A DNA stretch of 64,000 nt from Blastococcus sp. VKM Ac-2987 (GTDB lineage: Bacteria; Actinomycetota; Actinomycetes; Mycobacteriales; Geodermatophilaceae): assembly GCF_026967805.1 (NCBI RefSeq), contig NZ_JAPVBG010000001.1, positions 1,240,047 through 1,304,046 of the forward strand, read 5' to 3'. Of this stretch, positions 24,817 through 27,967 are shown piece by piece. Position 1 is the stretch's first letter, and every line of letters starts with the position of its first letter. Made by a program: the position numbers and the translations under genes. The notes beneath the pieces were generated by a model. That model did no database searches and had not been told where the DNA came from. It was given only the letters and a program-made list of their open reading frames with translations.

Positions 24817-25938
24817 GTGAGCACCAGCGACGACCTGCCGGCCGCACCGCTCCAGCTGCCCTCCCAGGTGCCGCCGGGATCGCCACCGACCCTGCGCCCC
24901 CGCCCGGCCGGGCAGCAGCAGCGGATGCCGACCCGCCGCCCCGAGACGGCGGCCGTCATCGACTGCGCCGTCTACGTCGACGGCCGGCGCCAGGAGCCGG
25001 TGGCCGCGGAGGACGCGCTGCCGGTCGCCGAGGAGCTCGGCGGGTTCGTGTGGCTGGGCCTCTACGCGCCGGACGAGCACGAGCTGGGGGCGATCGCCGG
25101 GGAGTACGACCTGCACCCGCTCGCGGTCGAGGACGCCGTCTACGCCCACCAGCGGCCGAAGCTGGAGCGCTACGACGACGCCCTGTTCATGGTCCTCAAG
25201 ACCGCGACGTACATCGAGCACGAGGAGCTCACCGCGACCAGCGAGGTCGTGGACACCGGCGAGGTGATGGTCTTCCTCGGGCCGAACTACGTCATCACGG
25301 TCCGGCACGGCGACCACGGCGGGCTGGCCGAGCTCCGGCAGCGGCTGGAGGAGCAGCGCGAGCTGCTGTGCCTCGGCCCCGCCGCCGTGCTCTACGCCGT
25401 CGCCGACCTGGTGGTGGACTCCTTCGTCGATGTCGCCGCCGCGGTCGAGCAGGACGTCGAGGAGCTGGAGGCCTCCGTGTTCAGCCCCCAGCGCACCGAC
25501 GACGTCGGCCGGCTCTACCAGCTCAAGCGGCAGCTGATGTCGCTGCGGCGCGCGGTGTCCCCGCTGGAGGTCCCGCTGCAGAAGCTGGCCGAGCGGCCCG
25601 TCGACGTCGTCCCCGATGCGATGCGCTCGTACTTCCGGGACGTCCTCGACCACGCCATCCGGGTGCGCGACCAGGTGGCCGGACTCGACGAGCTGCTCAC
25701 CTCGATTCTGCAGGCGTCGCTGGCCCGGACCCAGATGGCCGACAACGAGGACATGCGCAAGATCTCGGCCTACGCCGGCATCATCGCCGTCCCCACCGCC
25801 ATCGCCGGGATCTACGGGATGAACTTCACGTACATGCCCGAGCTCGACGAGCCGTGGGGCTACCCGGCTGTGCTGCTGGTGATCCTCACGGCCATCGTGC
25901 TGCTCTACCGCGGCTTCAAGCGCAACGGCTGGCTCTAG
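24817..25938 (+). CDS. corA: CorA-type magnesium/cobalt transporter
   Basis: 373 residues. A soluble alpha/beta N-terminal domain (about 45-290) includes LAVEDAVYAHQRPKLERYDDALFMVLKT. Two C-terminal helices carry the selectivity signature YGMNF at the end of the first helix. CorA forms a pentamer that admits Mg2+ (or Co2+, Ni2+) across the membrane. GTG 24817 has GGAGGAGGG about ten bases upstream. The first about 45 residues are Pro-rich and poorly conserved. It is transcribed alone and ends 38 bases before palindrome element 1. Confidence 0.93.
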   Translation: MSTSDDLPAAPLQLPSQVPPGSPPTLRPRPAGQQQRMPTRRPETAAVIDCAVYVDGRRQEPVAAEDALPVAEELGGFVWLGLYAPDEHELGAIAGEYDLHPLAVEDAVYAHQRPKLERYDDALFMVLKTATYIEHEELTATSEVVDTGEVMVFLGPNYVITVRHGDHGGLAELRQRLEEQRELLCLGPAAVLYAVADLVVDSFVDVAAAVEQDVEELEASVFSPQRTDDVGRLYQLKRQLMSLRRAVSPLEVPLQKLAERPVDVVPDAMRSYFRDVLDHAIRVRDQVAGLDELLTSILQASLARTQMADNEDMRKISAYAGIIAVPTAIAGIYGMNFTYMPELDEPWGYPAVLLVILTAIVLLYRGFKRNGWL

Positions 25939-25976
25939 CCCGTCCGGCCCTCGCGGCCCTCTCCACCCCCGCCCCA

Positions 25977-26036
25977 GGCATAGGAGGCTTTGCCTACGGT
26001 TTCGCAGCCGAATCCGTAGGCATAGCTTCCTATGCC
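25977..26036. repeat. Palindromic element 1 (60 bases) flanking the DUF559 gene
   Basis: The 23-base arms GGCATAGGA...CCTACGG and CCGTAGG...TCCTATGCC pair with two mismatches around a loop containing GCCGAAT. It is clearly less GC-rich than its surroundings. A near copy sits at 27062-27120 on the other side of the DUF559 gene. Both could end transcription in either direction. The shared loop and compensating base changes argue for a specific repeated element. Confidence 0.85.
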
Positions 26037-26128
26037 CGCCTGAAGCCTCTTCCGCGGCTCACCCATGAGTTGTCCACAGATCGCTGCGCCGGCTCCAACC
26101 GAGTGGGCGTGCCGACGAGGCTGCCCTC

Positions 26129-27052
26129 ATGGATTGGCGGAAGGCAATCGTCGACACAGTGGGCGACCACGGCGGGCTGGCCACGCGCCGGCAGTTGCTC
26201 GAGCGGGTACCGCGCCAGGTGCTCGACAGCCATGTCGGCCGCGGCTACCTCGTGCGGGTCTTCCCCAGGGTCTACCGGCTGCGGAACTGCGTCGAGGACG
26301 ACGCGCTGACGCTGCGGGCGGCGCTCCTGCACGCCGGGCCGGTTGCGGCACTGAGCCACACGACCGCACTCGCCGTGTGGGGGCTGCGCCCGCTGGAGCG
26401 GCCACTTCACGTGACGGTGGACCAGAGCGTCAAGAGAGCCGGAGCACCCGACCTGCTCGTGCACCGCCGGCTGCGCTTCGAGCCGGAGTCCGCGCAGTGC
26501 GTGCAGCGGCGCGATCTCCGCATCACGACACTGCCCCGGACCGTCATCGACTCGTGGCCCTTGCTGCCGACCGTGGAGCGCCGTCCGCTCGCCTTGGACC
26601 TCAGCAATCGCGGCCTGGTCACCGCGCGACATCTCGACGAGGCACTGGCGGAGCGCCCCAATGTCGCGGGCCGGCGCGGCCTGCGGCAGACCATCGATCT
26701 CATCGCCGACGGCTGCAGGAGCGAACTCGAGGCCCACGGCGTCCTCACCGTCTTCCGGCACCGTTCGCTGCCGCCGAGCGTCGGCCAGTACCCGGTGCAG
26801 CTGCCGGCCCGTCGGATCAAGCTCGACCGGGCATGGCCAGAGGTGAAACTGGCGGTGGAGCTGGACGGCGCCCGGCACCACACCTCACCGGCGGACCGCC
26901 GCAAGGACCTGGCCCGCGACCGGGAGCTCGCCGCGCTCGGCTGGGTCGTCCTCCGCTTCACGTACGCGGACGTCCTGCGCGATCCCGAGGGCGTGCGCGC
27001 GAAAGTGCTCGCGGTCTACCGCGCTCGCCTCGCACAGCTGCAGGTGAGCTGA
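26129..27052 (+). CDS. AbiEi-like winged-helix plus DUF559 (Vsr-type nuclease fold) protein
   Basis: 307 residues. The N-terminus (about 1-90) resembles the AbiEi_4 antitoxin-type winged helix (GGLATRRQLLERVPRQVLDSH, GRGYLVRVFPRVYRL, ALSHTTALAVWGL). The C-terminus (about 230-300) resembles DUF559, a Vsr/PD-(D/E)XK relative: VELDGARHH, then RRKDLARDRELAALGWVVLRFTYADVL. Such proteins are common lone genes in Actinobacteria with no proven role; a DNA-binding nuclease is the family inference. No toxin partner is adjacent, so it is not an ordinary AbiE pair. It is bracketed at 93 and 10 bases by matching palindromes, an arrangement reminiscent of a nuclease with its own repeats. Confidence 0.8.
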   Translation: MDWRKAIVDTVGDHGGLATRRQLLERVPRQVLDSHVGRGYLVRVFPRVYRLRNCVEDDALTLRAALLHAGPVAALSHTTALAVWGLRPLERPLHVTVDQSVKRAGAPDLLVHRRLRFEPESAQCVQRRDLRITTLPRTVIDSWPLLPTVERRPLALDLSNRGLVTARHLDEALAERPNVAGRRGLRQTIDLIADGCRSELEAHGVLTVFRHRSLPPSVGQYPVQLPARRIKLDRAWPEVKLAVELDGARHHTSPADRRKDLARDRELAALGWVVLRFTYADVLRDPEGVRAKVLAVYRARLAQLQVS

Positions 27053-27060
27053 GACTTCGC

Positions 27061-27121
27061 AGGCATAGGAAGCCTTGCCTGCGGATCAGGGCCGAATACG
27101 CAGGCAAAGCCTCCTATGCCT
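27061..27121. repeat. Palindromic element 2 flanking the DUF559 gene
   Basis: AGGCATAGGAAGCCTTGCCTGCG pairs with CGCAGGCAAAGCCTCCTATGCCT around a loop containing GCCGAAT. Compared with element 1, the stem pair A-T inside CCTACGG/CCGTAGG has become G-C in CCTGCG/CGCAGG, a compensating change. It separates the DUF559 stop (9 bases) from the convergent rsmI stop (10 bases). Confidence 0.85.
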
Positions 27122-27130
27122 GTGACGGGG

Positions 27131-27967
27131 CTAGGACTTGGCGGCGACGACGGCGTCGTAGACGGTGCGGCGCGGGAGGCCGGTGCGTTCCACGACCGCC
27201 CGGATGGCGTCCTTGCGGGTGGCGCCCGCCGCCTCCTCCGCTGCGACCTCGGCCGCGAGCTCGGCCGGCGTGAGCTCCACGGCCCGCTCGGGTGCGCCGG
27301 CGACGACGAGGGTGATCTCGCCGCGCACCCCGTCGGCGGCCCAGGCGGCCAGCTCGGCCAGCCCGCCGCGCCGGACCTCCTCGTGGGTCTTGGTCAGCTC
27401 GCGGCAGACGGCGGCCGGCCGGTCGTCCCCGAGCACGGCCGCGGCGTCGGTCAGCGCGTCGGCCAGCCGGTGCGGGGACTCGAAGAACACCATCGTGCGG
27501 CGCTCGTCGGCCAGCGACGCGAACCGCGACCGCCGCTCACCGCCCTTCCGCGGCAGGAAGCCCTCGAAGCAGAACCGGTCCACCGGCAGGCCCGAGACCG
27601 CCAGCGCGGTGGTCACCGCCGACGGCCCCGGCACGGAGGTGACGACGACGCCGGCGTCGATGGCGGCCCGCACGAGCGTGTAGCCCGGGTCGGAGACCGA
27701 GGGCATCCCGGCGTCGGTGAGGAGCAGGACCGTCCGCCCCTCGGTCAGGGCCGCCAGGAGCCCGGGCAGCCGGGCGCGCTCCACCGACTCGTGGAAGGTG
27801 ACCACCCGACCGGTGAAGGTGACCTCGAGGTCGGCGGCCAGCCGGTGCAGCCGCCGGGTGTCCTCGCAGGCGAGGACGTCGGCCGTGGCCATCGCCGCCC
27901 GGAGCCGCGGGCCGACGTCACCGGGCTGCCCGAGGGGCGCCCCACCCAGCACCAGCCGTCCGCTCAC
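27131..27967 (-). CDS. rsmI: 16S rRNA (cytidine1402-2'-O)-methyltransferase
   Basis: 278 residues of the tetrapyrrole-methylase-like SAM fold. Seen are VLGGAPLGQPGDVGPRLRAAMATADVLACEDTR, then LLTDAGMPSVSDPGYTLVRAA (SAM site), PGPSAVTTALAVSGLPVDRFCFEGFLPRK and RELTKTHEE. It 2'-O-methylates C1402 in the decoding centre of 16S rRNA. GTG 27967 matches the family start; no strong ribosome binding site is seen. It is divergent from pmt with a 53-base gap, the same pairing as Rv1003/Rv1002c in M. tuberculosis. Ser replaces Thr in the N-terminal APLG segment of some relatives, which is unremarkable. Confidence 0.95.
   Translation of the reverse strand: MSGRLVLGGAPLGQPGDVGPRLRAAMATADVLACEDTRRLHRLAADLEVTFTGRVVTFHESVERARLPGLLAALTEGRTVLLLTDAGMPSVSDPGYTLVRAAIDAGVVVTSVPGPSAVTTALAVSGLPVDRFCFEGFLPRKGGERRSRFASLADERRTMVFFESPHRLADALTDAAAVLGDDRPAAVCRELTKTHEEVRRGGLAELAAWAADGVRGEITLVVAGAPERAVELTPAELAAEVAAEEAAGATRKDAIRAVVERTGLPRRTVYDAVVAAKS

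Follow-up and report, generated by a model that had tools for sequence, protein, structure and literature searches.

We analysed a 64,000-nt stretch of the genome of Blastococcus sp. VKM Ac-2987 (hereafter the window), in which a gene for a DUF559-type protein lies between two palindromes, E1 and E2 (Table 1; gene calls were made with a simple codon model). Both palindromes are present where the initial annotation had placed them, with lengths of 60 nt and 59 nt. E1 is abutted by the 3' end of corA at the left border and E2 by the 3' end of rsmI at the right border. The two elements are near-perfect palindromes with the ends GGCATAGGA...TCCTATGCC, and their folds on the + strand are very stable (-46.8 kcal/mol for E1 and -40.3 kcal/mol for E2; z -9.5 and -7.2, respectively). 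Within the window, the exact word GGCATAGGA is confined to E1 and E2 and does not occur as scattered single words. U-tract terminators, i.e., GC hairpins with a trailing T run, were found at 0 sites within 25800-27300, and Rfam at gathering thresholds returned three tRNAs and nothing else for the whole window.

Table 1. Features of the DUF559 locus in the window.
Feature	Position	Strand	Remarks
corA-like Mg/Co transporter gene	24817..25938	+	PF01544 1.5e-56; TIGR00383 3.9e-59 (slightly below cut-off); gene call
E1, left palindrome, family A, 60 nt	25977..26036	.	brackets DUF559 gene
DUF559 gene, 307 aa	26129..27052	+	nuclease domain DUF559/MTES_1575 aa 229-296; weak AbiEi-like N-terminal part
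E2, right palindrome, family A, 59 nt	27062..27120	.	brackets DUF559 gene
rsmI (16S rRNA 2'-O-methyltransferase)	27131..27967	-	TIGR00096 4e-58

DUF559 is a catalogued domain of unknown function. The initial annotation had described the protein as an AbiEi-like DNA-binding part joined to a Vsr-like nuclease part. The nuclease part is borne out by Pfam matches to DUF559 (6.5e-11) and MTES_1575 (1.4e-10), while the AbiEi-like part is faint in this protein (AbiEi_4, 0.11). Further profile matches were to 3HRL ("endonuclease-like", 3.4e-7), to 3R3P ("mobile intron protein", 3.3e-4), which we take to be I-Bth0305I, and weakly to Vsr (0.21). Residues S198, E201, Q220, D233, E244, G247, H251, D260, and R263, among others, are invariant across 34 aligned sequences, and these include the conserved acidic and histidine residues of the nuclease domain (E201, D233, E244, H251, and D260). 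When ten relatives were scanned with Pfam at E 0.1, nine matched DUF559 or MTES_1575, several of them below the curated cut-off. An AbiEi-like N-terminal part was detected in the relative on L148 (AbiEi_1, 1.5e-4) and in the type-C protein on L190 (AbiEi_4, 4.3e-7, with AbiEi_1 and a weak match to DUF1707). Pfam did not find a DUF559 domain in the L190 protein and its AbiEi_4 match is clear, and for this reason the nuclease part of type C may be a further divergent family. Type-C relatives lie at L190:7505-8440 (genome G021), on L169 near 12108 (G000, the genome of our strain), and on L230 near 15609 (G014). Our strain carries three DUF559 genes by Pfam and a further divergent relative at G000:1192108.

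Copies of the palindrome within and between genomes

A search for further copies of the 60-base element found it dispersed: the 4.61-Mb genome contains 26 matches to the pattern GGCATAGGA N30-50 TCCTATGCC and 0 to a reversed control. E1 and E2 are members of a dispersed palindrome family and not a chance pair. A covariance model placed 33 copies (it scored 150 of 3771 candidates, and one tandem accounts for three overlapping places), and our set of 31 own loci combines the 26 exact copies with five from this model. One candidate, L206:1911, was a false element and was dropped. Tandem part-copies of the palindrome, likely the product of slippage, occur on L005 at about 1415-1560 (three in a row) and on L034 at about 1500-1600.

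These loci cluster at the ends of genes. Twenty of the 31 lie between convergent genes, seven in -- and three in ++ orientation, none between divergent genes, and one inside a gene. Compared with background gene pairs (67/396 convergent and 67/396 divergent), the 30 intergenic loci are enriched in convergent gaps (20/30; p 1.3e-8) and depleted from divergent ones (0/30; p 0.008), and all 30 are at most 47 nt away from a stop codon. Divergent placement was also rare among other copies having called neighbours (3/106). The TAG of the motif GGCATAG ends the adjacent gene in 5/29 own and 20/73 named copies. The single intragenic copy belongs to a cobaltochelatase-like gene (TIGR02442; L027:1501-1559, corresponding to G000:C6:605604-605662), in whose linker it lies in frame; several genus members have similar linker coding sequence (L260-L281), which may derive from the palindrome in these related species. 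Direct repeats flanking 138 elements were at chance level; the target-site duplications that mark a MITE of a classical transposon were not detected.

The initial annotation had called the palindromes covarying. Copies of our own genome do not show this because their paired changes barely exceed those of shuffled alignments (254 of 330 variable-position cells vs 243 +/- 5.6, largest 264; 30 copies). The signal is stronger in sampled copies of Blastococcus sp. DSM 46786 (137 of 168 cells paired vs 102 +/- 5.1) and B. capsensis (79 of 96 vs 53 +/- 5.7), though shared subfamilies may inflate it in these related species. Across 29 orthologous pairs, both sides had changed in a way that preserved pairing at 63 stem positions and one side had changed at 87, in a count that leaves out other two-sided changes.

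The exact pattern is present in 14 of the 60 genomes searched (our own included), all within one family of the sample, and a one-pattern search across 84,980 species returned 69 stretches, all from Blastococcus, Modestobacter, Geodermatophilus, or Trujillonella; viral contigs of IMG/VR gave 0 matches to the element pattern. The dialect GGCATGGGAAGCGAT... makes up most of the copies listed for G006, G007, and G022. With orthology judged via flanking proteins, the orthologous site is occupied for 16 of our 31 own sites (69 named loci), and density varies from 6 elements per 400 kb in G000 and 5 in G021 to 1 in G014 and 10 in G008. Individual sites differ as well: G021:889719 and G008:936776 are occupied where the corresponding site of G000 consists of two stops 13 nt apart, and at G000:1223855 and G008:765861 the TAG of the element has taken the place of the gene's own TGA, which is present in G021, G014, and G017. 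The latter genome, sister of G021 in a two-gene tree, has four relaxed matches compared with 23 strict ones in G021, and two of these four bracket its DUF559 gene.

Copy number follows the window-type DUF559 gene (at least 70% identity), in counts that mix strict and relaxed patterns. The eight genomes with this gene have 2, 4, 19, 23, 24, 26, 27, and 34 copies, and the 15 genomes without it have 0 (seven times), 1, 2, 2, 2, 7, 11, 12, and 13; at least 19 copies are thus found in 6/8 vs 0/15 genomes. The association (p 5e-4, or p 2.5e-3 with the bracketing pair subtracted) comes from statistics that ignore phylogeny, and there are exceptions in both directions, with 11-13 copies in G006, G012, and G022, which do not have the window-type gene, and few copies in G017 and G004, which do.

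Matched palindromes at DUF559 genes

Across the genus, 21 of 23 genomes have a DUF559-like gene at the corA/rsmI locus, although in G010 only its last 96 codons were called. Among the eight genomes with the window-type gene, both palindromes were recovered by regular expression in seven; in the eighth, G004, the regular expression found one and the flank alignment half of the second. Orthologues of the window gene in Modestobacter and Geodermatophilus pulveris are also bracketed (L045, L082, L089). Thirteen of the 15 remaining genomes carry a different DUF559-like gene at this place; the conserved residues align in 12 of these 13, and all four that were given to Pfam match DUF559, two of them above the cut-off. 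By eye, window-type palindromes were not seen at the rsmI end in the 15 other genomes. In G013, the gap between corA and rsmI consists of a single palindrome in 80 nt without a gene, which is the kind of empty site that the initial annotation had anticipated. G016 has a C-terminal gene remnant flanked, as judged by eye, by two similar hairpins.

At these loci, the left and right flanks of the gene resemble each other far more often than those of control genes. The match reached the control 95% line (at least 34) at 20 of 21 loci and the control 99% line (at least 42) at 15, with G013 and G016 left out due to overlapping windows. Segments were taken as the best match between the flanks (150 x 260 nt in the loci, 200 or 260 nt in controls), which biases scores upward, and controls were treated alike. 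Left and right copies match directly at some loci and inverted at others. Many DUF559-like genes are flanked by related palindromes to an extent that clearly exceeds control genes, and the repeat-plus-nuclease unit on the plan of REP elements and their RAYT transposase that the initial annotation had proposed is supported. Our own initial reading of the DUF559 gene as a mere bystander was dropped after these flank comparisons across genomes against control genes.

Palindromes and genes also change together. Palindrome similarity tracks DUF559 identity across 21 genomes (rho 0.62; 0/2000 permutations), and this persists when rsmI is accounted for (rho 0.61), while the correlation of the palindromes with rsmI itself is 0.15. 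It is weak among the 13 non-window corA/rsmI genes (rho 0.20; 173/2000 permutations). For 14 of 21 left copies, the closest of the 41 other palindromes is the partner across the gene, and in six of the remaining seven the closer palindrome sits in a genome whose gene has 78-94% identity.

Five 400-kb stretches contained nine DUF559-like genes detected with an HMM whose 49 seeds include corA/rsmI genes; five of the nine are corA/rsmI genes again because the stretches were centred near rsmI. Eight of them score 42-88, in the top 1.1% of 981 control genes (median 25), including three of the four away from corA/rsmI. The ninth, G000:1192108, has a control-like score (26, about the median); its flanks look matched by eye, but it was not counted, nor was a G017 gene between 690535 and 691557 that had been found through its palindromes. 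In G021, G014, and G000, the type-C genes occupy corresponding places and are probably orthologues, and hence are not independent of each other. Palindromes of type C were also seen at places remote from the DUF559-like genes detected (G000:1208992, G014:576784, G014:742715, and G017:814019; E 5e-6 to 0.02). The strict type-B pattern gave at most two copies per genome, by which measure type B has not been amplified as a family. Among DUF559 paralogues elsewhere in the genus, 11/24 reach the control 95% line (34), one of them exactly.

Outside the family, six of seven DUF559 genes are bracketed. A protein search yielded three Tsukamurella and two Arthrobacter genes, all five between palindromes of unrelated sequence (flank scores 87, 55, 80, 68, and 52). 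A Nonomuraea gene is unbracketed (26); a fourth Tsukamurella gene, encountered by chance in a control stretch, ranked first of 42 with a score of 69 vs a median of 21. Three of the four foreign palindromes examined are dispersed. With both strands and the bracketing copies included, the first Tsukamurella palindrome was found at 20 places spread over 8 records; for the second, there were 12 places in 9 records. The Arthrobacter palindrome of StoSoilB13 occurs at 10 places on two replicons, and that of ERGS1 at 3 places, all in the single record that carries its own gene. Fifteen dispersed Tsukamurella copies were inspected, taking the listed place per row and leaving out two gene-holding rows: 10 are convergent, 5 follow one gene, and 0 are divergent, and all lie at most about 31 nt from an annotated stop codon, with which some overlap. 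In Arthrobacter ERGS1:01, the DUF559-like gene is preceded by a tandem of three whole or half palindrome copies (L309:1149-1308).

A probable palindrome-nuclease partnership and its alternatives

We consider it probable that the window contains a unit in which a DUF559 nuclease gene lies between two cognate palindromes in the manner of REP/RAYT systems, with a Vsr-like nuclease replacing the Y1 transposase. At the level of sequence comparison, matched bracketing, lineage-specific palindromes, and dispersal of solo copies to gene 3' ends are established, as are gain and loss between species, higher copy numbers where the gene is present, and one empty site that retains a single palindrome. The palindrome-bracketed relatives in other bacteria suggest a mobile-DNA partnership like that of REP and its transposase, built on an unrelated enzyme. 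The DUF559 protein would bind its palindrome, which may be extruded into a hairpin or cruciform, and would nick or cut there; repair could then copy the palindrome to further sites, and the gene could be lost or exchanged along with one palindrome. Solo copies may be tolerated and perhaps even useful because they lie just 3' of stops, where, as hairpins or terminators, they would define RNA 3' ends in both directions.

The likeness to REP/RAYT is broad. The available part of one report describes a gene between two palindromes that co-vary with it and whose copy number follows it (PMC2817692), and that of another describes REPs as intergenic, near 3' ends, and donating TAG to flanking genes (PMC3733652). 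Here, the window gene and many relatives lie between two palindrome copies, although 13/24 genus paralogues and the Nonomuraea gene do not; palindrome and gene co-vary, copy number follows the presence of the gene (with the phylogenetic caveat given above), and the elements share the 3'-end placement and supply TAG to genes. The systems differ in that DUF559 is a nuclease of another family than Y1, that the palindromes are about 25-70 nt long with at most tens of copies in the genomes seen, and that left and right copies match directly at some loci and inverted at others. REP-type GTAG/CGTC end tetranucleotides were not encountered among the ends, which are GGCATAGGA...TCCTATGCC, GGCATGGGA, or unrelated.

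Among our 31 own loci, E1 and E2 alone have a DUF559-type gene next to them. Copies scattered with no link to DUF559 genes had been named as evidence against the unit, and this holds literally for the own copies except E1 and E2, but not across genomes, where the link exists. The scatter in our genome does not refute the unit because the REP/RAYT plan predicts it. We lean only narrowly towards the wider generalisation that proteins with DUF559 and an AbiEi-like N-terminal part are the enzymes of widespread actinobacterial selfish elements that recognise their own palindrome, bracket their gene with it, deposit solo copies at the 3' ends of genes, and swap in and out of fixed loci; the REP/RAYT lifestyle would then have arisen a second time, independently, with a Vsr-like nuclease instead of Y1.

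The strongest alternative, which we regard as rather unlikely, is that the palindromes serve as terminators in both directions or as hairpins at mRNA 3' ends and that a defence-type DUF559 cassette is exchanged at hot spots without ever touching them; both flanks would then match because the gene is exchanged together with its terminators. The initial annotation had offered a simpler form of this view, two related bidirectional terminators. As to placement this is probably right, given the 30/30 intergenic own loci close to stops and the very stable folds of E1 and E2. Long hairpins are moreover generally common at convergent gene ends, occupying 11/26 convergent gaps of 25-250 nt in G000 and 16/31 in G021 (elements included), compared with 2/50 and 1/48 divergent gaps. 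However, a terminator role leaves unexplained why each DUF559 gene has a different matched pair, why these pairs are lineage-specific, why near-identical copies are dispersed, and why their number follows the gene; it also sits poorly with the absence of U-tract terminators from 25800-27300 and with a copy inside coding sequence.

It is improbable that slippage, template switching, or gene conversion alone keep the palindromes alike without an enzyme of their own. Such homogenisation would fit the tandem part-copies on L005 and L034 and the finding that arms are closer to copies of the same genome than to the orthologous copy (on average 4.6 to own paralogues vs 7.9 to the orthologue; 28 pairs). 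The distance to the orthologue exceeds that to the own genome's copies in 25/28 pairs and that to the partner genome's copies in 18/25. Yet these processes predict neither the bracketing of DUF559 genes nor new sites. A true REP/RAYT system, in which a Y1 (HUH) transposase moves the palindromes past a bystander DUF559 gene, would account for the REP-like placement including the supply of TAG (as in the part of PMC3733652 noted above) but is hardly credible, given that the RAYT-type transposase PF01797 was detected in 0/23 genus genomes vs 5/14 control genomes and that the palindromes change along with the DUF559 gene.

The palindrome-nuclease unit also touches on other known systems. Vsr-like homing endonucleases share the nuclease domain, as judged from the match to 3R3P, and selfish cutting of their kind is plausible here; in contrast to them, no intron or intein was seen, and we know of no paired palindromes with dispersed solo copies among these enzymes. 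The N-terminal part recalls the AbiEi antitoxin of type IV toxin-antitoxin systems, most clearly in the proteins on L190 and L148. Unlike that antitoxin, nine of the ten relatives scanned match the DUF559/MTES_1575 nuclease, and an AbiEii gene was not present among the annotated neighbours inspected. The DUS/USS of Neisseriaceae, according to the available part of one report (PMC3630211), have genome-wide dialects and form stem-loops at terminators much like our palindromes; unlike these, the word GGCATAGGA is confined to two elements of the window instead of being scattered singly, and that part of the report says nothing of nuclease genes being bracketed. The available main text of RepRanger (PMC12306157) mentions no nuclease, RAYT, or DUF. 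Judged by titles, none of the 14 papers found to mention DUF559 concerns palindromes, and our literature search, which covered work other than preprints, found no earlier report of palindrome-bracketed DUF559 genes.

If DUF559 proteins act on their own palindromes, this would give the DUF559 family a function, identify what mobilises short palindromic repeats where a genome has no RAYT, and provide many natural enzyme-site pairs for specificity tests. It could also explain the concerted "dialects" of terminator-like hairpins in actinobacteria. Besides the palindromes, intergenic regions of several genus members contain a second repeat type that ends near GGTCCTTTCA, e.g., at G017:820325-821379 (L300/L301), at G014:737599, and on the 5' side of rsmI in G010 (L141) and G016 (L157). 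At one site, G017 has this second repeat type where four other species carry the palindrome.
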